DNA of 64,000 nt from Cryphonectria parasitica EP155 (lineage: Eukaryota; Ascomycota; Sordariomycetes; Diaporthales; Cryphonectriaceae): assembly GCF_011745365.1 (NCBI RefSeq), contig NW_024468910.1:124001-188000 (forward strand), given 5' to 3'. Both the position numbers and the translations under genes were made by a program. Under the pieces are notes generated by a model that searched no databases, had not been told where the DNA came from, and saw nothing but the letters and a program-made list of their open reading frames with translations. Below, piece after piece: positions 2,796-64,000 of the stretch (position 1 is its first letter; every line of letters starts with the position of its first letter).

Positions 2796-3400
2796 ATGGA
2801 CCAGCGTGTGGAGTACAGCTCGCGGCTTCTTGACCAGGAGTGCGAACAACACCGGATCACCAAGGAGCTACTTATGTAGACGCAGAGTTGTGCCAATGCT
2901 TGGGAACGCGCTTATCACCTCTCGAACTCAGAGACTCAGTTCTACAAGATGAAAGTCTCTGCCGCTGAAGCCCGAAGCCAGCAGCTATCGCAAGAAAACC
3001 TTCGGCTCAATCTCCTACTTAGCCAATTAGTAAGTACTGCCTGCTATAGGGCGATGCTACAAGCTAATGTCTCAAGATTCAGTCTCCCGAGCTTACAAGT
3101 GACGAGGGTCTCCACAGATCCGGCAGACGTGCTACCAGCCAGGATGCCGCCTCTCACATCGATGACAATCGTAATGTTACGCCACTCCCCCAAGGCAGTC
3201 TGCCGGTCACCAATCTACCCTACCGACAAAGCCAATACTTGGACACCGTGCTGCCCAGCCAGCACTCTGAACCTGTGGCTTCGGGCTCCTGGCCTGTGCA
3301 GGAGCAGGGCCGTGTTTCTCCTCTACTCGAGGACCAAGCGGAACAGCGACTGTTCCGAAGTATCGCCCCTATGTCGACAGACACTGCGGGGAGGAAGTAA
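2796..3400 (+). pseudogene. Coiled-coil gene with one premature TAG
   Basis: From the ATG at 2796 the frame reads a Glu/Gln-rich helical region broken by a single TAG at 2877-2879 (CAG-to-TAG would explain it). It then continues to a donor at 3030. A 53-nt intron (3030-3082; gtaagt...gctaat...ttcag) joins, in phase 0, an exon of 106 codons open to TAA at 3398-3400. Without the stop the product would be about 183 residues: an N-terminal coiled coil (residues 1-78) and a polar, Pro/Ser-rich tail. I do not recognise it. Translation could also restart at the ATG at 2949, which keeps the same frame and intron. Confidence 0.45.
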
Positions 3401-5228: not shown

Positions 5229-6313
5229 TCACTGGTGTTCTAGGGACATCTTCGCCACCCGTCGCCTTTTCCGAGCTCCTTCTTGTCTCTGCTCTTTGAC
5301 ACTCTCCTGCAGCTGCTGTGGGGCTTGCAAAGATTTATCTGCTTCAGCTCGACCCCGTTTCTTCGGCCACAATGCTGGAGGAGGAGGCGCTTGAGAATCA
5401 ACAGTGCTTTCCAACTTCTGATTGGCAATGCGTAAGCTGCGACGGAGAAGACCCTGCCCCTCCATGACCCGATGCATTCGTTGCCGCGCGTCCCTCTGCA
5501 CTTGGGGGAGCTGCCGCAAGACCCATGGCAGCTCACTGTAGTGCGTGTCCGCAAGCATCTCCCAGTGAGGTCCATGTAGCCTGTAGTCCACGGTTTGGCA
5601 GAGGAAGTCCTCAATGGCGCTTATCGGAGCATTTGCGCGATCGTGTTTCATTTTGCTCTCGGCCAATTGTAGACGAGCCGAAGGGCTGCGCTGCTCGTGC
5701 TGCTCGTGCTGCTCGTGCTGCTCGTCGGCAGTCTCGAAGGACAGTAGAGCCGCTTCGCAGTCCCGTGCACGGCTCTCCAGTCCCGCCTCGGTCTTCCTGC
5801 GTGCCATCTGCAAGGCGTTGCCGTCAATCTGTCGCGTTTCCCTTTCCGCAGGTGTCAAGACATCAAGCACGAGGAGCTTTTCCCATGCTTTGTCGTACTG
5901 TCTTTGATACGTCTCGACTCGCGTCTTACAGTAAGTAGATAGCCAGTGCTTGTATACCAGGTACTCAAGCCACGTCGACAAGATGTCTTGTTGTAAGGGA
6001 TCAGCCGTCGGTTGAAAGGCAAGACGTATGCCATAATGGTCGAGAACAGTGCGCTTTGCAGCCTCGACGTATGCAGCTAGGCTGTTGTCCGCGCGGGTCT
6101 GATTGAAAGCCCGGAGAGCTAGCAAGCACTCCTCCGAGAGCAGACAACCGCGGCGGCTGCCTTCGGCTGGAGTGCGCGATCTCTGTTTGCAAGTTACTAG
6201 GGTTTACGAGACTTAGGCCGGAAAACGTAGGCGACTTACCTGAGCCGTTCGATGAAAGTTTGCGACATTTGATCCGGGTCCTGGACCGCGATCTGACGAC
6301 GGTGATCCTGAAG
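5229..6313 (-). pseudogene. Lineage-specific coiled-coil/RRSxRIA family gene, copy 1 (3' part)
   Basis: The minus-strand frame from about 6137 to 5229 encodes about 298 residues: a conserved block (TWLEYLVYKHW, YDKAWEKL...), a coiled coil with a His-Glu-Gln triplet run, an LRRSLRIA motif and a basic C-terminus. Its relative at 36680-38856 shows the matching blocks (TWIEYLGYHC, YDAAWETL, RRSARIA). The end of exon 1 (up to 6240, ...FIERLR) and a 57-nt intron (6239-6183, gtaagt...cag) also match that relative. The large exon-2 segment present in copy 2 is missing here and the frame changes, so this copy is internally deleted. A Copia element starts at 6314; the rest of exon 1 resumes beyond it at 14052. 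The family is one I know only as an uncharacterised, multi-copy fungal family. Confidence 0.6.
6309..6313. repeat. Target-site duplication TGAAG (left)
   Basis: TGAAG directly precedes the 5' LTR and is repeated at 14052-14056 directly after the 3' LTR: the 5-bp duplication expected of an LTR-element integrase. Confidence 0.85.
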
Positions 6314-6480
6314 TGTGAAAAATGGGGCATATTTAACCCTAACCCTCTGTTTTGGTCTCCTCATAAACCATCTCAGAGCCTGGTTTAGTTACTTAGATGA
6401 TCTTCCTTTTGTATTAGATAGATTCAATCTCAACACTCATTCAGCCACTTCCACGTGCTCAGCTCATACGTTTCTCCTTA
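6314..6480 (+). repeat. 5' LTR, 167 bp
   Basis: Starts tgtgaaaaatgg and ends cgtttctcctta; the 3' LTR at 13885-14051 is the same by eye. It ends in TA rather than the usual CA. It holds two telomere-like units (aaccctaaccct) and a stretch that reads open by chance. Confidence 0.9.
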
Positions 6481-12158: not shown

Positions 12159-13701
12159 TCACTCCTTAGGTAGAGAATGAAGAGTAGCTAGCACTGCCTC
12201 AATATCAGCTTTAGCTTTCTCATACTTTAAATGCTATTCACAGTAAGACTCAACAGAATAATCATTAACAAAGCGCGAGACAGACTGAATAGCAGCTTAT
12301 TTTCCCTTCTTCTTAGCTGAAACTACAGCCTTCCCCTCCTTAGCAGAGCATGAAACTGCCCCCTTACAATCAGCCTTCTGCTCAGCAAGAAGCATATCAC
12401 GCTCTTCCGTAAGCACCTCAATCTGCTTCTGCAGCTTATCAACCTCCGAAAACTTGCCCGCCTCAAAATGCTCAAGAGCAGCTTTCTAAGCTCATACAGC
12501 ATGCTTGGATCGAGTCCCCAGAGGAGCAAGGTTGAAAGTGGAGTTTTCTTTCTCTACTTCAGCGCACATCCTTTTCTTCAAGAGCGTAGGAGCATCCATC
12601 TCCTCAGCAGAAGCAAGCGCATGCTTGGCTATATAAAGCTTGTCTACAAAAGGCATGAGATAGAAAGAAACCGGAATATACTTGTAACCCTTTGAATACC
12701 AAGCATAGCAAGCAGCAGATAAGTTCTTCTGATTGTGATAGGAACTATTAGAGCTGCTTGCAGCCAGACTCTTGATACAGCCAATGCATGGAACATCGCG
12801 AACAGCACCCCAGGAAGCATCGTCTTAGCTCTTCGAGGAACCTGCAGCGGGAGTACTGGAAGGGGTGGCCACTGGAAAAGTCTTTTTGGCTTGCAACTGA
12901 GGAATCCTCAACTTGGCAGCATCTCCAGCAGCCACATCGAGGCGCTCCTGCTGAAGCTTCTGCATCAATGCATTCTGGGACCTCAAACGAGCTATATCCT
13001 GCTCAGTTACAGGCCTTATTGCAACTGGCTTAGAACTTGAAAGGCTACCGGAAGCCTGAAAAAGGGTCAGCCAGGTAAACATTGGAAGAAAAAGCAATGC
13101 AAACCTACAGTCTTGAGCGCCTCCTGAAGAAGCACAAAGCTATCTTCATCATCATCGTCATCATCATCAATAAACAAGCTAGAAATCCCCGTAGAACCAG
13201 CACCAGAGCGCTTGGAAAGACTAATACCAACTGAATCGGAGGCACTATCGACCGAAGAATGCAAAATCAGGATATCAGCACGAGCAGCAGACAACTCGAC
13301 CGGAGCTTGAGAACTTGAAGCAAGCAGGCCAGACCGCTATCCCTGGAAACAAGAACAATCAGTTCAGCCCATACCAATCCCCAGACAGCTCTTTCTATAC
13401 TCATATCAGGAAGAGGGTGCTAACCAGCAGTTGGAATCAAGACAGGCTGAACAGAGCTCGCGCTCTTCTCTGTGGCCATCGAGGGACCATCATGCGACTC
13501 AGATACGCTAGCAGGGGAGCTGGGGTTTGCACCCAAGAGATCCTCATCAGTCTCCACATCGGAAGAAGGACCAGAAGAGACCACATGGATCTCGCCCTCA
13601 GCAGAATCGCTGTCATCGGAAACAGCCATACTAAGCTCGCTAAGAGGGACAGAAACGTCAGACTCGCCTGATGAGAAATCTGGAGTGACTAGAAAAGGCA
13701 T
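12159..13701 (-). pseudogene. Antisense three-exon Cys-rich cargo gene of Copia, RIP-damaged copy
   Basis: This lies on the strand opposite to pol, between pol and the 3' LTR. The start (MPFLVTPDFSSGESD) is at 13701 and the product aligns along its length with the less damaged gene at 61561-63103. Exon 1 is acidic and Ser-rich. Exon 2 carries a poly-Asp run (13140-13170). Exon 3 carries a Cys-rich patch, of which several Cys have become Tyr here, and a C-terminal coiled coil, ending at TGA 12159-12161. Stops are visible in the last third. Mutations are dense near 12200-12700 and sparse above 13300, so RIP damage falls off towards the LTR. The function is unknown. Confidence 0.65.
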
Positions 13702-13884: not shown

Positions 13885-14051
13885 TGTGAAAAATGGGGCA
13901 TATTTAACCCTAACCCTCTGTTTTGGTCTCCTCATAAACCATCTCAGAGCCTGGTTTAGTTACTTAGATGATCTTCCTTTTGTATTAGATAGATTCAATC
14001 TCAACACTCATTCAGCCACTTCCACGTGCTCAGCTCATACGTTTCTCCTTA
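13885..14051 (+). repeat. 3' LTR, 167 bp
   Basis: By eye it matches 6314-6480 base for base. It is preceded by a purine-rich tract (agatgggggg) suited to priming plus-strand DNA, and followed by the duplicated target TGAAG at 14052-14056. Confidence 0.9.
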
Positions 14052-14152
14052 TGAAGATACTGGTCTAGCTCCGCATCAGTGAGCGCTGCGAGTTCACAAG
14101 CCAGCGGCTTCAGTGCTGGTGTCATGATTCTGGGTCTGGTTTGCATAGCCAT
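14052..14152 (-). pseudogene. Lineage-specific family gene, copy 1 (5' exon fragment)
   Basis: Reading minus from ATG 14152 (or in-frame 14125) gives a peptide with CELAALTDAELDQYLQ, which stops exactly at the Copia insertion and continues beyond it (6313 downward) in the same frame. The relative at 36680 has CDIAAYSDAELDRYLE followed by the same downstream block, so the two fragments are one exon. Confidence 0.7.
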
Positions 14153-57206: not shown

Positions 57207-60200
57207 CAGCGTTCCACACAAGTCAAGCGGAATCAAGCGGCTTGACAAGCGAAGTTGACGGTTTGGCGATGGTCTTCAAGACAAGTAAGCGGCCTTTTTG
57301 ACCAAGCGGCTTGCAAGCGAACAAGCGAATTGCCTCAGTCCTATTGTGGGTTCTTATAGGCTCAGTTGAAGCTATCGCGGCCCACTCTGGATGCAACCTT
57401 GCTGGGGTTTTTGGTGTTTTGGCCTAGGCTTTTGCCCTGGCCCTTGGCTATTCGGCCTATATATCCGTATTAAGTCTTTTCCTCCGCTGGCAGGCAAGCT
57501 CTTCTGTACCTCTTCTACCCTTGTACTTGGCATCCTCGCGTTTACTTCCTCGCGTTTCGCACCTGGGTGTCCTCGCGTTTATCTATCATCGCTTTCCTTT
57601 TACTATCATGGCTAATAGCAATGCTTTCAACCAGCTTAGCTACGCGAGATATACCTCTATCCAGAAGCAGATTGATGCCTACGATGCTACAGCACAGTTC
57701 TCTCTTGGTACCCTCAAAGACCTCCTACGCATTAAGGTTCCAGGACGATCCCATGCTTTTGTCCCAGCTCGCTGGATGCCAACATCATCGGCCAAGAGGA
57801 AGCGCCACGGGTCTGATATCTGGCATTTCGGCGAGAAGCTCTTCGAGGTTATCGTACAGGCTGACGGCACATGCAAAGTTGCAGCGGATTGGTGGTTCTG
57901 TTGCCTCTGCGATCAAAATAATCGACAGACCTTATATACTACGCGTAATAGTATCTCGACAAGCATATCAGCAGCTCTAAAGCATCTCGAAGGTTGCGAT
58001 AACGAGGGCTATAACCTTGGCAAGCTGAAAGAGCTTGTTGCAGAGGCAGAGAAAGAGGAGGTTAGCCCAGAGGAGCTTGGCTGGCGAAAGCGGCGAAGAA
58101 TAAACCATCGTGGCCTTTTCAACAACAGCAGTCTATATACAGCGCCTGATGCCTTGAAAGATGCTGCTAACGCTCCAACTCGTGCAGTTGTTAGTCTCGC
58201 GAAGAAGGCTATAACAGAGCTGGTTGCTTGTTGCGATATACCTCTTTCAACTCTCGAGGCGCCTTAGTTCCGCCAGCTGTTGATGGTCTGGAATAGTACC
58301 CTGACGGAGCACTTTTTCCCTCGAAGTGATGGCATAGTGATGAGATGGCTGTTTGAGGCGTTTTACGAGAATCTAGCTGGTCTTCAGCTCTAGCTTCAGT
58401 GCGAGGCTATCTCGAAGATTCATCTATCTGCTGATCTCTGGATCTCGCTTAACTACAAAGGCATTCTAGCAGTGGTTGCGCATTTTGTTGATAGCGATGC
58501 AAAGCTGCGAAATCGCCTTATAGCAGTGAGGATGATCAACGGCCAGCATACTGGCAAGAATCTCCAGTGGCATCTCCATTAGATTATTATGGCTTTTCAG
58601 CTTGAGGAGCGGCTCGGCTGGCTTATTTTTGATAACGATAGCACGAACGATAAGGCAATAAGGCTTCTTTTTCGCAAGATGTATGGCTTCAATCATCGTG
58701 AAGCTGAGAAGCTGCGGATTGAACGGCGATGCCGCTGCTGAGGCCATATTATTAACCTTATTGTCAAAGGCTTCCTCTCTGGTAACGCTAAACAGATACT
58801 CGAGGCTGAAGACAGCGATGCTGATGAGGTAAGTTGAGCTGTTTTGTATCTTCCTGGCTTATTGCTAATATTTAAGCAGGAATTCGAGCAACAGAGGAAT
58901 CAGTGGGATCAGTGGCAGCGAGAAGGATCTATACGCTGCGCTCATCTTATTGTAGTCTTTCTCAAGGCAAGTGTACAGCGGGTTCAGGATTTCGAGAAGA
59001 TTGTTCAGAACTCTTTGTTTTCTTCAGAGGACTAAGATCTCGAGAACACTACAGCCTTTTTGGCAGAGGCCCTTCCTCAGCCAACAGCACAAGACCTTAC
59101 GATGCCACCACTACCGCTTCCTACAGACCCTACAGATGAGCAAACTGGCGATATATCTACCTTGCGGCCAGTGGTAGCTCAGGAGATGCGATGGAACTCA
59201 ACAGAGGCTGAGATATCGCGGCTGCTGAGGCTGAAAAGACCTATTGATTTCTGGGTTAAAGAGCAAGTTCGAAGCGGTGCTAAAATACAATCTTTGAGTG
59301 AGCAGGACTGGCGAGTGCTTGAGGCAACTCGAGATCTTTTGCAGCCATTCCTATGGCATACAAAACACCACGAGGGGAACGCTGTAGCTGTTCATGATGT
59401 CCTCAGTTCTTTGTAGGATCTCAAGAAGCATTTGCGATTCTTTCAGGAGAGATTTGGAGGCAGAAAAACGTATGCTGAAGAAGAAATCCTTGAGGAGATT
59501 ATTGTCTCGCCAAATGCAGAGAAACTAGCCCTCCAGCAGCCCTCATCGCGATATCAGGCCCCTTCAAGACCTTCCTCTCGGCCCTCGCCTCGACTCTCCC
59601 CTCGACCCTCCTCTCGACTTTACTCTCGGCCCTCCTCTCAGCGTTCCTCTCGGCCCTCCCCTCGACCCTCCCCTCGATCCTCCCCTCGCCGTCGAGCTTC
59701 ACAGTCTTCAGATATATTTCCCAGCACTCCAGTACGGGAATGGCCAGATGTTGGTTCTCAATAAGAGGCTGAGATATACCCCGAGGAATGTGAGCTTGAA
59801 GGTGCTGAGTTTCTGAGAGAATCAGTAGCCCACGCGTTGGCAATTCTCAAGCGATATAAGAGCAAGCTTCGCGAATGCCCTATATATTTTGCTGCTGCTG
59901 TTTTGCATCCGAAATATCGCCTGGTTGGTATTCGTATAGCAGCGCCAGCTATTGCTAACGATGTTGAACAAGAGTTTAAGGCTTTTTACGAGAAATATTG
60001 GGCATATAAAGATCCAGCCTTATCATCAGCATCAACACCCAGCTTGCAGGAAGATTAAGAACATAACAAGCCAAAGAAGCAGTGGAGGACCGCCTTCAGA
60101 GCACAACCAAGGCCAAAGCATCAACGGCTATAGTTAGAGCTGGAGAAATATCTCCAGCTAGAAGAGGACGACGAGGACGACGATGGTTTTGAGCCCCTCG

Positions 60201-60769
60201 TCTGGTGGGCAGCGCGTAAGGCCGAGTTTCCAGCCCTCTCACAGATGGCCTTCGACGTCCTATCTATCCCCGCGATGTCGTCCGAATGCGAGAGAGTCTT
60301 CAGCCAAGGGAAGCTTACGATGTCCTCGCAGAGGAGGAGAATGAAGAGCAGCACTCTCGAGCTCCTTTTGTGCCTCAAGGACTGGCTGAAAAATGGAACG
60401 CTGGCAGGACCAGCAGCAGAGATGAGGAGGAAAGGCATTGCCTAGCAGCTTTTTGCCAAAAAAAGGCATTCGAGGGGGTCAGAAATGTTTCTTTCAGCAC
60501 TTGAGCGAGGGACCTCGCGCGGATCAGAGCGTAACAAGGAAAACTATCATCATATGCCTCTGTACCGGTTGAACCACGTGCGTAGCTCATTTGTTACTCT
60601 CACCACCTTTCGTTTCGTATATCTATCGTACATTCCTAATCCGGTATAGTGACCAAGTCACCAAGCGAATCAAGCGGCCAGGTACTAGAAGACAAGCAAG
60701 CGGCCAAAATAGTTAGCAAGTCAAGTGGAGGGCTACCGCTTGCCTTGACTTGACTTGTGTGGAACGCTG
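57207..60769 (+). mobile_element. hAT DNA transposon, 3,563 bp
   Basis: The ends are cagcgttccacacaagtcaa and its inverted match (ttgacttgtgtggaacgctg), with 8-bp duplications outside. Subterminal caagcgg/aagcggc motifs recur at both ends (57230-57330, 60660-60740), likely transposase-binding sites. A transposase pseudogene fills the inside. The element sits inside an exon of the APH-type kinase gene. Confidence 0.92.
57608..60445 (+). pseudogene. hAT transposase, several stops
   Basis: From ATG 57608: a BED-like zinc finger (WWFCCLCDQNN...ALKHLEGC, about residues 96-130), then a TAG at 58265 where Gln is expected. The catalytic region runs on in frame with further stops. GHIINLIVKGFL (about 58742-58777) is a hAT landmark. 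A 51-nt intron (58829-58879, gtaagt...gctaat...cag) precedes a later exon with WRVLEATRDLLQPF. An odd Ser-Pro-Arg repeat (59565-59700) interrupts the protein, and the dimerisation block FDVLSIPAMSSECERVFSQG closes it (60250-60320). Several stops replace Gln codons. The element is non-autonomous but its ends look usable. Confidence 0.8.
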
Positions 60770-61191
60770 GCATGTAGACAGCGCCAGCATCGGCGGCGAG
60801 CTGTGATCCGGGACCTTCGTAGGCGTAGACGCGAGGCATAACCACGGTCGGGAGCCTCTGTCTCACGAAACGCATTGTAGAAACCTCGCACGCGATCGAA
60901 TATTGTTCGTCCGTTTCGTTCACTGTTGGTAGAGTGTCAGGGTGGCGAGGCAATCGAACACGTGCGATGATAAGACTGTCGTCCTCAGCGACCATCTCAA
61001 AGCAGATCCAATACTGCCCTGCCGAAAACGGCTCGCTCATACTGAATTTCTGGCCTTTGATGAGCTCGGCATGGTGCAGAAGCACGCCTTTTGTCCAGCT
61101 TGGCAAGCAATCCCACCAATCGCTCTTTCATGCCGTTGTAGTCCCAGCCGTCGAACGATGTCCATCTTGTGCTTGGGGCAATTCTCGACAT
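60770..61191 (-). pseudogene. APH-type phosphotransferase, N-terminal part
   Basis: ATG 61191 starts WTSFDGWDYNGMKERLVGLLAKLD, then the frame shifts near 61100 to one that reads HAELIKGQKFSMSEPFSAGQYWICFEMVAEDDSLIIARVRLPRH, the nucleotide-binding lobe of APH-like kinases. PRVYAYEGPGSQLAADAGAVYM follows, cut at the hAT insertion. The part beyond 57206 continues it in frame. The frame change is a further break or an unplaced intron. An LTR begins 20 bp upstream of the ATG, so the promoter has also been displaced. Confidence 0.75.
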
Positions 61192-61210
61192 ATTAAGTCT
61201 GCTGGGTTCC

Positions 61211-61377
61211 TAAGGAGAAACGTATGAGCTGAGCACGTGGAAGTGGCTGAATGAGTGTTGAGATTGAATCTATCTAATACAAAAGGAAGATCTTCTAAGT
61301 AACTAAACCAGGCTCTGAGATGGTTTATGAGGAGACCAAAACAGAGGGTTAGGGTTAAATATGCCCCATTTTTCACA
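61211..61377 (-). repeat. 3' LTR of the second Copia, 167 bp
   Basis: The same 167-bp LTR as at 6314 and 13885 with, by eye, one base difference (tagaagatc for tagatgatc). Purine tract agatgggggg lies next to it on the minus strand. Confidence 0.9.
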
Positions 61378-61560
61378 CACCCCCCATCTGACTGGTCAGA
61401 TGTGCCAGAAAAGTGGGTCTTTTGTGGGGTCCCCGCAGACGCGTTTAAGCTTATGTGGGCGCGTTTTACAGTCGCCTTGCCTCCTTCCAGTCCTCTTTCT
61501 TTTTCAACCAGCTCTTTTTCCATCTGTTTTCAAGGTTTTTGAAAGCCTCCGCGCGTCAAT

Positions 61561-63103
61561 ATGCCTCTTCTAGTCACTCCAGATTTCTCGTCAGGCGAGT
61601 CTGACGTTTCTGTCCCTCTCAGCGAGCTCAGTATGGCTGTTTCCGATGACAGCGACTCTGCTGAGGGCGAGATCCATGTGGCCTCTTCTGGTCCTTCTCC
61701 CGATGTGGAGACTGATGAGGATCCCTTGGGTGCAAACCCCAGCTCCCCTGCCAGTGTGTCTGAGTCGCATGGTGGTCCCTCGATGGCCACAGAGAAGAGC
61801 GCGAGCCCTGTTCAGCCTGTCTTGATTCCAACCGCTGGTCGGCACCCTCTTCCTGATGTGAGTATAGAAAGAGCTGCCTGGGGATTGGTATGGGCTGAAC
61901 TGATTGTTCTTGTTTCCAGGGACGGCGGTCTGGCCTGCCTGCTTCAAGTCCTCAAGCTCCGGTCGAGTCGTCTGCCGCTCGTGCTGATACCCTGATTTTG
62001 CGTCCTTCGGTCGATGGTGCCTCCGATTCAGTCGGTGTTGGTCTTTCCAAGCGCTCTGGTGCTGGTTCTACGGGGATTTCTAGCCCGTTTATCGATGACG
62101 ACGACGATGATGATGAAGACGGCTCTGTGCTCCTTCAGGAGGCGCCCAAGACTGTAGGTTCGCACCGCTTTTTCTTCCAATGTTTACCTGGCTGACCCTT
62201 TTTCAGGCTTCCGGTAGCCTTTCAAGTTCTGGGCCAGTCGCAACAAGGCCTGTCACCGAGCAGGGTATGGCTCGTTTGAGGTCCCAGGATGCGTTGATGC
62301 AGGAGCTTCAGCAGGAGCGCCTCGATGTGGCTGCTGGAGACGCCGCCAAGTTGAGGACTCCTCGGTCGCGAGCCAAAAAGACTTTTCCAGTGGCCACCCC
62401 TTCCAGTACTCCCGCTGCAGGTTCCTTGAAGAGCCAAGACGATGCTTCCTGGGGTGCTGTTCGCGATGTTCCATGCATTGGCTGTATCAAGAGTCTGGCT
62501 GCGAGCGGCTCTGATGGTTCCTGTCACGACCAGAAGGACTCATCTGCTGCTCGCTGTGCTCGGTGTTCGAAGGGTCACAAGTGTATTCCGGTCCCTTTCT
62601 ACCTCATGCCTTTTGTGGACGAGCTTTATATGGCCAAGCGTGCGCTTGCTTCTGCTGAGGAGATGGATGCTCCTACGCCCTCGAAGAAAAGGACGCGCGC
62701 TGGAGTGGAGAAGGAGAACTCCACTCTCAACCTTGCTCCTCTGGGGACCCGATCCAAGCATGCTGTGTGGGCTTAGAAAGCTGCTCTTGAGCATTTTGAG
62801 GCGGGCAAGTTTTCGGAGGTTGACGAGCTGCAGAAGCAGATTGAGGCGCTCACGGAAGAGCGTGATGTGCTCCTTGCTGAGCAGGAGGCTGATCGTAAGG
62901 AGGCAGTTTCACGCTCTGCCAAGGAGGGGAAGGCCGTGGTTTCGGCTAAGAAGAAGGGAAAACAAGCTGCCGTTCAGTCTGTCTCGCGCTCTGTCGATGA
63001 TCATCCTGTCGAGTCTTACCGTGAATGGCATCTGAAGCACGAGAAAGCCAAAGCTGATATCGAGGCAGTGCTGGCTACCCTTCACCCCCCACCTAAGGAG
63101 TGA
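61561..63103 (+). CDS. Antisense three-exon Cys-rich coiled-coil gene inside Copia
   Basis: It runs opposite to pol. Exon 1 61561-61857, intron 61858-61919 (gtgagt...aactgatt...ccag), exon 2 61920-62153, intron 62154-62206 (gtaggt...gctgac...ttcag), exon 3 62207-63103; both introns are phase 0 and restore one frame. The product is acidic and Ser-rich (exon 1), then Ser-rich with a seven-Asp run (exon 2). Exon 3 has a coiled coil (RSQDALMQELQQERLDV), a Cys-rich patch (CIGCIKSL...C...RCARCSKGHKC) that could bind zinc, a basic stretch and a final coiled coil (EVDELQKQIEALTEERDVLL). One TAG at 62774-62776 (CAG expected) is the only break. About 475 residues if read through. The function is unknown; it is kept in both Copia copies here. 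Confidence 0.7.
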
Positions 63104-63268: not shown

Positions 63269-64000
63269 TTAGTGATTGAGAGCACCCAAAAGGGGCCAAT
63301 GTGAGATCGAGTTGCCCATCTGTGTCCCTTTAGGTTCCTTCTTGGTCCTCTGATTCAAGGCATAGCTGACATCCTGAAGGTTGAGGAGCGCTCTGAAGTG
63401 TTCGAACTGCGCTCGATTGAGGTTCTTGGTCAGTCCATCAGCTGGCATGCTCTGTGTTGGCATATATGAGACCTGGAATTTGCCCTTTTGGAACTCCTGC
63501 TTGAGCCACATTTGGTGTATATCTATATGGCGGAGCTTTGTGTTTATCCTTTCACGCTCTGTGACTACCAGCCGTATGGCTTGTTGATTATCACAGAAGA
63601 TATTCCAGGGCTCGCCGAGGTTCAAGGTGAGGTCTCGAAAGAAGCGTTGTAAGGCGATCGTTTCCTTGGCTGTGGCCGAGAGGGCGTACAGTTCAGCCTC
63701 TGTGGTTGAGGTGGTTACCAGGCTTTGCTTTGTTGCTTTCCATTGTATAGAACCTCCGAATAGGCTGAAGATATATCCTTGTGAGGATTTTCGGTTCTCT
63801 GCATCGTCGGCAAAGGAAGCATCTCCGGCGATTAGCAGGGCTTGAGCCTCAGGGTGGCTTCCTCCGTACTGGATTGCCAGAAATCTCGTCCTGTACAGGT
63901 AACAGATTACTCTGTCTGCCTGTTCCAGATGCTTTGGCTCTGGGTTTGTTAAAAACCTGGAGAGAAGAGCGCATGCAAAAGCCACATCTGATCTTATCAT
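63269..64000 (-). CDS. Copia pol, RNase H end (partial)
   Basis: 243 residues are open from the window edge to the stop at 63269. Copia RNase H marks in order: AGDASFADDAENRKSSQGYI, TTSTTEAELYALSATAKE, FCDNQQAIRL, RHIDIHQMWLKQEF, and MPADGLTKNL. It degrades the RNA strand during reverse transcription. The catalytic Asp and Glu residues are present, unlike in the copy at 11262, where DASFVDN and CNNQQ show Asp-to-Asn changes. The upstream part of pol lies outside the window. Confidence 0.88.
   Translation of the reverse strand: MIRSDVAFACALLSRFLTNPEPKHLEQADRVICYLYRTRFLAIQYGGSHPEAQALLIAGDASFADDAENRKSSQGYIFSLFGGSIQWKATKQSLVTTSTTEAELYALSATAKETIALQRFFRDLTLNLGEPWNIFCDNQQAIRLVVTERERINTKLRHIDIHQMWLKQEFQKGKFQVSYMPTQSMPADGLTKNLNRAQFEHFRALLNLQDVSYALNQRTKKEPKGTQMGNSISHWPLLGALNH

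Follow-up and report, generated by a model that had tools for sequence, protein, structure and literature searches.

The locus described here raises the question of why a spliced gene should lie on the opposite strand of a Copia retrotransposon, between pol and the 3′ LTR, and whether it is a working gene of the element, a host gene carried as cargo, or a source of antisense RNA. It is found in a stretch of 64,000 nucleotides from Cryphonectria parasitica EP155 (NW_024468910.1, positions 124,001 to 188,000), which we call the window and which contains two copies of the gene. Copy 1 and its surroundings are laid out as follows.

61206-61210, unstranded: 5-bp target site duplication on the LTR side of copy 1, whose element lies on the minus strand and extends beyond the window
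61211-61377, minus strand: 3′ LTR of copy 1, 167 bp
61378-61388, minus strand: polypurine tract directly beside the 3′ LTR, reading GATGGGGGGTG on the pol strand (from the sequence)
61378-61560, plus strand: leader of the antisense gene, 183 nt from the 3′ LTR to the ATG, with a pyrimidine-rich tract near the ATG
61385-61402, unstranded: 18-nt inverted repeat, CATCTGAC-TG-GTCAGATG
61561-61857, plus strand: exon 1 of the antisense gene, 99 codons (from the sequence)
61858-61919, plus strand: intron 1, 62 nt, GTGAGT...TTCCAG (from the sequence); in subfamily L028, GTAAGC...TTTTAG
61920-62153, plus strand: exon 2, 78 codons, with an Asp/Glu run (from the sequence)
62154-62206, plus strand: intron 2, 53 nt, GTAGGT...CTGAC...TTTCAG (from the sequence)
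62207-63103, plus strand: exon 3, with the six-Cys domain, the common in-frame TAG, the C-terminal part and the stop
62474-62584, plus strand: six-cysteine domain, C-x2-C-x12-C-x10-C-x2-C-x5-C, residues 267-303
62684-62698, plus strand: basic stretch KKRTR, by eye a putative nuclear localization signal
62774-62776, plus strand: in-frame TAG at codon 367, shared by all 17 copies having that column
62777-63100, plus strand: 108 open codons 3′ of the TAG, with homology to L029 and L031 and, by eye, a coiled-coil-like character
63269-64000, minus strand: 3′ end of the Copia pol of copy 1, continuing past the window

The three exons (61561-61857, 61920-62153 and 62207-63103) join into one frame of 475 codons, final stop excluded, in which the only internal stop is the TAG at codon 367. 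The splice signals of both introns are good as judged by eye, and the coordinates, exons, phases and stop given in a preliminary description of this DNA all check out. Its acidic and Cys-rich parts are also confirmed by the sequence (residues 1-177 contain 31 Asp and Glu vs 9 Lys and Arg), and its coiled-coil part is coiled-coil-like by eye. The length of the open frame is weak evidence for a gene, because the longest stop-free run, 219 codons, is matched in 10 of 1000 dinucleotide shuffles; ORF length alone was therefore dropped as an argument. What lifts the antisense gene above chance is its sequence homology at other loci, described below. Two C. parasitica EP155 database proteins match it at 99-100%. 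The database models P0001 and P0002 begin at an internal Met and skip codons around the TAG, so that automatic annotation conceals the 5′ exons and the stop; their donors look weak by eye.

The gene is convergent with the Copia pol of copy 1 (RVT_2, E 1.7e-38), and the gap to the pol stop is 165 nt. It sits between pol and the 3′ LTR and opposite to gag-pol, which is the placement known as aORF-3R. The LTR pair of copy 1 has one difference in 168 compared positions. Copy 2 (L014) lies entirely within the window.

6309-6313, unstranded: left target site duplication of copy 2, TGAAG
6314-6480, plus strand: 5′ LTR of copy 2
12159-13701, minus strand: antisense gene of copy 2, with heavy C-to-T mutation and loss of the first donor
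13885-14051, plus strand: 3′ LTR of copy 2
14052-14056, unstranded: right target site duplication of copy 2, TGAAG

The first donor of copy 2 is AT for GT, and stops are found at codons 94, 101, 254, 365, 367, 430 and 451. Among the 20 loci examined, a 5-bp target site duplication is present in all 11 copies for which both LTRs were located (flanks read by eye). One family copy of 7794 bp has a first ORF in the gag position, for which Pfam gave no match, followed by pol with gag_pre-integrs (274-319), rve (335-438), SH3 (523-596) and RVT_2 (922-1162), where the rve and gag_pre-integrs matches fall below the Pfam cut-off. The integrase ahead of RVT_2, the 5-bp target site duplication and the short LTRs are as in Ty1/Copia elements, from which this family differs in its extra antisense gene. 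The sequence 3′ of the 5′ LTR looks complementary to the anticodon arm of the initiator tRNA, and may be a copia-type priming site. A 4.5-kb family member, L026, has LTRs that differ at 1 of 168 compared positions and has a target site duplication; about 3.3 kb are missing from it, so that pol lacks its final portion and the antisense gene its end. Beside copy 1, at approximately 57210-60770, there is a putative hAT-like element, identified by eye and frame-broken, whose borders carry inverted tracts reading cgttccacacaagtcaag.

A search of the genome found at least 25 matches to the antisense gene in at least 23 places. At least 17 of these are near-full copies: 16 span at least 1500 of the 1543 bases, and one spans 1372. 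The preliminary description knew of two copies; both exist, but they are two of at least 17 near-full copies plus fragments. Among the matches listed, 18 of the 19 family pol copies that reach the end of the pol query adjoin the gene or a fragment of it in convergent orientation, the sole exception being C2:1011053, so that the presence in most family copies expected of an aORF-3R is found here too. Taken one by one, the four dinucleotides at the splice sites are unbroken in 14, 20, 19 and 14 of 20 aligned copies and fragments, two of the six misses at the last site being fragments that end short of it. Antisense introns can outlast transposition, since the template is the sense RNA; we accept this part of the preliminary argument as established knowledge.

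Differences within the family are almost all C-to-T or G-to-A. Cleanly aligned copies have 0-1 transversions per 1428 coding bases, and the excess transversions in L022, L024, L026 and L027 are confined to short segments where a copy is truncated or diverges at its end. Counted over 19 copies and fragments, with L028, of another subfamily, left out, the distinct C-to-T and G-to-A changes comprise 175 silent and 389 replacement changes, vs 255 and 558 possible. This is the chance ratio, and there is therefore no sign of selection after insertion. The suggestion that retention in two copies points to a role accordingly fails, the mutations being spread over silent and replacement sites in the expected proportion, and we rejected any inference of selection from the copies because nearly all of the divergence within the family is repeat mutation.

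In L013, L014, L017, L018, L019 and L025 the C-to-T repeat mutation is not centred on CpA. In five of these copies pooled (L013 left out), a C with no preceding G and no following T was changed in 45% of cases (4680/10330), compared with 10% for other C; CA, CC and CG were mutated about equally, and CT and GC far less. Classical RIP is CpA-biased. RIP has been reported for C. parasitica (excerpts of PMC8545091). The LTRs are mostly spared, for example those at 6314-6480 and 13885-14051: 28 of 380 susceptible sites are changed in five copies, against the 45% inside the element. The rate declines over approximately the last 400 bp at both element ends. LTR divergence would consequently not carry the mutation load.

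The TAG at codon 367 stands apart from the other stops: it is present in 17 of 17 copies that include the column, other stops are found in at most 12 of 17, and none of these others occurs in any of the four least mutated copies. It follows that the founder carried the TAG before the family spread. The single TAG that had been noted in the less mutated copy of the window is thus indeed there, but it is ancestral to the family and not damage to one copy. Since the founder carried it, the expected product is 366 residues long and is without the coiled coil.

A fragment from another subfamily, L028, comprises an LTR that is 84% identical, the leader, exons 1 and 2, and intron 1, whose signals differ yet are usable by eye. 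Identity to L028 is 89% at 61378-61440, 80% in exon 1, 76% in intron 1 and 83% in exon 2. The first of these segments consists of the 63 nt beside the LTR and holds the polypurine tract and the inverted repeat. In L028 the outer 7 nt of both arms of this repeat are retained and the centre is altered; in several family copies the arms have been altered by repeat mutation. Over the 176 codons of exons 1 and 2, the comparison of the family with L028 gives a dN/dS of 0.76. Amino-acid identity is.670 vs.653 in neutral simulation, a value attained in 25% of runs, and 29% of neutral runs stay free of stops. The dN/dS and the near-neutral identity indicate that the acidic half of the protein is hardly constrained.

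The homologies at more distant loci are more informative. L030 (C11) is a decayed Copia of a second family, whose pol segments are 44-67% identical (E 9.6e-110). A homologue of the antisense gene occupies the corresponding position and strand there, again convergent with pol (identity of 31% over 125 residues; E 6.5e-11). In databases this gene is the hypothetical protein P0003. It also has an in-frame TAG (3121-3123) 3′ of its six-Cys part. By sequence comparison, a homologue in the same antisense place is better evidence for a real protein than retention in copies is. Three further Copia elements, L034 and L036 (which form one family) and L035, have pol about 30% identical and no homologue in the 1.9-2.1 kb after pol. 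By eye, the resemblance between L034 and L036 in their translated ORFs ends some 260 nt beyond the pol stop, too little space for an antisense gene. As the homologue is present in L030 and was not found after pol in L034, L035 and L036, the gene seems to be old in one Copia lineage.

The six-Cys domain also occurs away from Copia. The pattern C-x2-C-x12-C-x10-11-C-x2-C-x5-6-C is present in four of four loci, namely the present family (fam1), L029, L030 and L032. L029 (C6), with 48% identity over 132 residues, reads on through a sense codon at the TAG position. It has additional cysteines beyond the six-Cys pattern, its surroundings are repeat-rich, and at 1101-1496, downstream of its six-Cys gene, is a DUF3435 fragment of 22.5 bits, below the cut-off of 25.8. 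L032 (C5), read by eye, is a short gene with splicing that contains this domain and ends in a basic, acidic tail. L033 (C2) has half of the domain, inside an apparent other mobile element, and L031 (C2) is a decayed fragment of the C-terminal part that is 42% identical and is interrupted by two in-frame stops. No Copia pol was found in the L029, L032 and L033 stretches (best chance match, E 0.11), and there is none within 10 kb of them among the matches listed. The preliminary description had named capture of a host gene by an ancestral element as a finding that would speak against a role; this is borne out in part, in that the six-Cys domain is found at loci without detected Copia pol, which may have given or received it.

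The similarity between these diverged loci was compared with simulated neutral evolution. For the six-Cys part, identity is.508 between fam1 and L029 vs.305 simulated, and.358 between fam1 and L030 vs.188; for the C-terminal part it is.392 with L029 vs.245, and.518 with L031 vs.311, in each case with 0 of 5000 simulations reaching the observed value, although the matches were picked by protein similarity and the amino-acid identities are therefore inflated. In all four comparisons most of the differences are at third positions. Other searches with the antisense gene were unproductive: Pfam gave only sub-threshold matches and none above the cut-off, PDB sequences gave one chance match (E 5.3), and 0 of 44 pattern matches in viral contigs were confirmed. 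Protein searches from the gene listed C. parasitica proteins only, one of them scoring the 7995 candidates that share most words, and a protein search from L029 gave no match at E 10. The AlphaFold2 model has a mean pLDDT of 45.7, too poor for a zinc-bound structure to be interpreted.

We consider it reasonably probable that an antisense accessory gene genuinely belongs to one Copia lineage and encodes a protein that acts as a nucleic-acid-binding regulator, its present members being weakly constrained and truncated. Its position, its exon-intron structure and its presence in two Copia families are read directly from the DNA, as are the protein-level resemblance that diverged loci show in their six-Cys and C-terminal parts and the existence of relatives where no Copia pol was detected. 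Transcription of the gene would be driven by a promoter within the 183-nt leader, whose sequence is only suggestive. Its protein, with an acidic N-terminus, a probable zinc-binding six-Cys domain, a basic stretch and a coiled coil, would be nuclear and would act as a small regulator, binding the element's own DNA or RNA and so setting its transcription. The gene may have derived from a fungal gene family with the same six-Cys domain. As far as the sequences go, three things count against an accessory role: the near-neutral exons 1 and 2, the common TAG, and the decay of L030 and L031. In the present family the gene may be losing ground and be on its way out. The same three exons and TAG can be read as passive cargo, a host gene picked up in reverse orientation at the DNA level by a Copia ancestor, conferring no benefit and drifting. 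A relative does exist outside Copia, in the small spliced gene seen by eye at L032, with no pol match among the matches listed, and the dN/dS of 0.76 in exons 1 and 2 and the family-wide TAG both favour this explanation, as does the chance ratio of replacement to silent repeat mutations, which bears only on mutation after insertion. A neutral passenger would, however, hardly be expected to stay recognizable as protein, at one and the same position, in two Copia families with pol only 44-67% identical, and we regard passive cargo as unlikely. It is quite unlikely, in our view, that the antisense transcript matters and not the protein, through double-stranded RNA formed with the 3′ portion of the sense genomic RNA and limitation of the element by Dicer and Argonaute, or through copy-number control on the element's side. 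By position, the whole length of the gene is complementary to the sense RNA; a DCL2/AGL2 pathway is inducible in C. parasitica (excerpts of PMC4182546); an RNA role has been discussed for plant elements (in part of PMC7264820); and antisense non-coding RNAs from fungal transposons have been reported in Blumeria (in part of PMC10648671). The leader next to the LTR, 61378-61440, is also better conserved between subfamilies (89%) than exon 1 (80%), but the same stretch contains the polypurine tract, which is required anyway. An RNA role would leave unexplained both the protein-level similarity between families and the usable introns of L028. Of the preliminary interpretation we thus retain the spliced antisense gene of a Copia element, but not the role derived from its retention in two copies; the roles suggested there (controlling sense RNA, binding Gag RNA or countering silencing) are candidates.

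Two further readings concern the TAG and overlap with the accessory, cargo and RNA explanations. The stop might be programmed, with occasional readthrough giving a long coiled-coil form beside the 366-residue short form. An in-frame TAG 3′ of the six-Cys part is found in both Copia families, fam1 and L030, and the 108 codons after it are open in the four least mutated copies. The best local alignment of the residues after the TAG in fam1 and L030 begins at the first residue of both, and the anchored 12-residue score is matched by 6 of 20000 random draws; unanchored, the similarity in L030 is not significant, being matched by 250 of 2000 shuffles, and the alignment requires about 21 fewer residues from the domain to the TAG in L030. 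Furthermore, L029, whose sequence is closer than that of L030 to fam1, carries a sense codon at this position, and the two TAGs may be independent: the rough chance of such a coincidence is 1 in 20, based on 20 of 475 codons being one C-to-T or G-to-A change from a stop. Programmed readthrough is something we hold to be very unlikely. Yet more doubtful is the compound idea that a captured six-Cys antisense regulator has lasted in the lineage with its coiled-coil half behind a TAG retained at one position in two families, rare readthrough of which sets the ratio of short to dimer-forming product. If true, a retroelement gene on the strand opposite pol would be controlled at the level of translation. 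Finally, the TAG could be the acceptor of a third intron, as in database model P0002, which, read against the window by eye, omits 24 codons ending in TAG. The omitted piece is conserved as protein, KHAVWA before the TAG being identical in L029, which reads through with no break there, and upstream donors are poor by eye in both families. We rejected a third intron on the ground of KHAVWA, and give it scarcely any credence.

The preferred reading, an accessory protein gene, invites comparison with known regulators and known antisense genes. The layout of the protein resembles that of a small nuclear regulator, and by analogy it might work like a Zn2Cys6 (Gal4-type) protein: both have two C-x2-C-x(n)-C halves, and basic, coiled-coil-like and acidic parts in one protein. 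The Zn2Cys6 pattern is C-x2-C-x6-C-x5-12-C-x2-C-x6-8-C, and the first loop here is 12 residues and not 6. This pattern is absent from four of the four loci, and the antisense gene gave no match to Pfam PF00172 (Zn_clus).

In plants, antisense genes of the aORF-3R type, between pol and the 3′ LTR, are described for Grande (gene23), RIRE2, Retand and PvRetro13 (excerpts of PMC7264820 and PMC11963269), and antisense TRP28 genes occur in 97% of Retand clusters (PMC11963269, in part). They resemble the gene described here in place, orientation and presence in most copies, as far as excerpts of PMC7264820 go, and the products are alike in having no clear known relatives or possible DNA binding, as suggested for TRP28 of Retand. 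A promoter of its own was shown for Grande (same excerpts of PMC7264820) and is presumed for the gene here. Retand belongs to a Gypsy lineage (excerpts of PMC11963269), whereas the carrier here is Copia. The gene here differs from the plant genes also in having two introns and the six-Cys domain. The other named plant cases are Gypsy elements too.

The closest fungal parallel by description is brtn of Boty, which Zhao in 2011 reportedly described in Botrytis and Sclerotinia. The preliminary statement that no fungal Copia case is named holds in the titles and abstract openings searched, which mention no antisense gene in a fungal Copia; it holds for Copia only, since Boty of Botrytis, a Gypsy element, carries antisense brtn (PMC7264820 and PMC8365987, both in part). 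Like the gene here, brtn is an additional antisense gene in a fungal LTR element. The two differ, compared by description only, in their carriers: this Boty belongs to the BcGypsy1 subfamily (PMC8365987, in part) and has a chromodomain gag-pol (PMC4227169, in part), and the carrier here is a Copia.

Antisense accessory genes of LTR elements are thus known, and the present case would extend their gain and keeping to Copia, and to a gene with introns. It offers a definable domain, relatives outside Copia and a sister family for comparison, in a host fungus that is workable in the laboratory and has both RNA silencing and repeat mutation, and so provides a concrete test case of whether antisense LTR genes act as protein or as RNA. 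The Copia carrier, the two antisense introns and the six-Cys domain set it apart from the antisense genes of LTR elements named in the literature searched.
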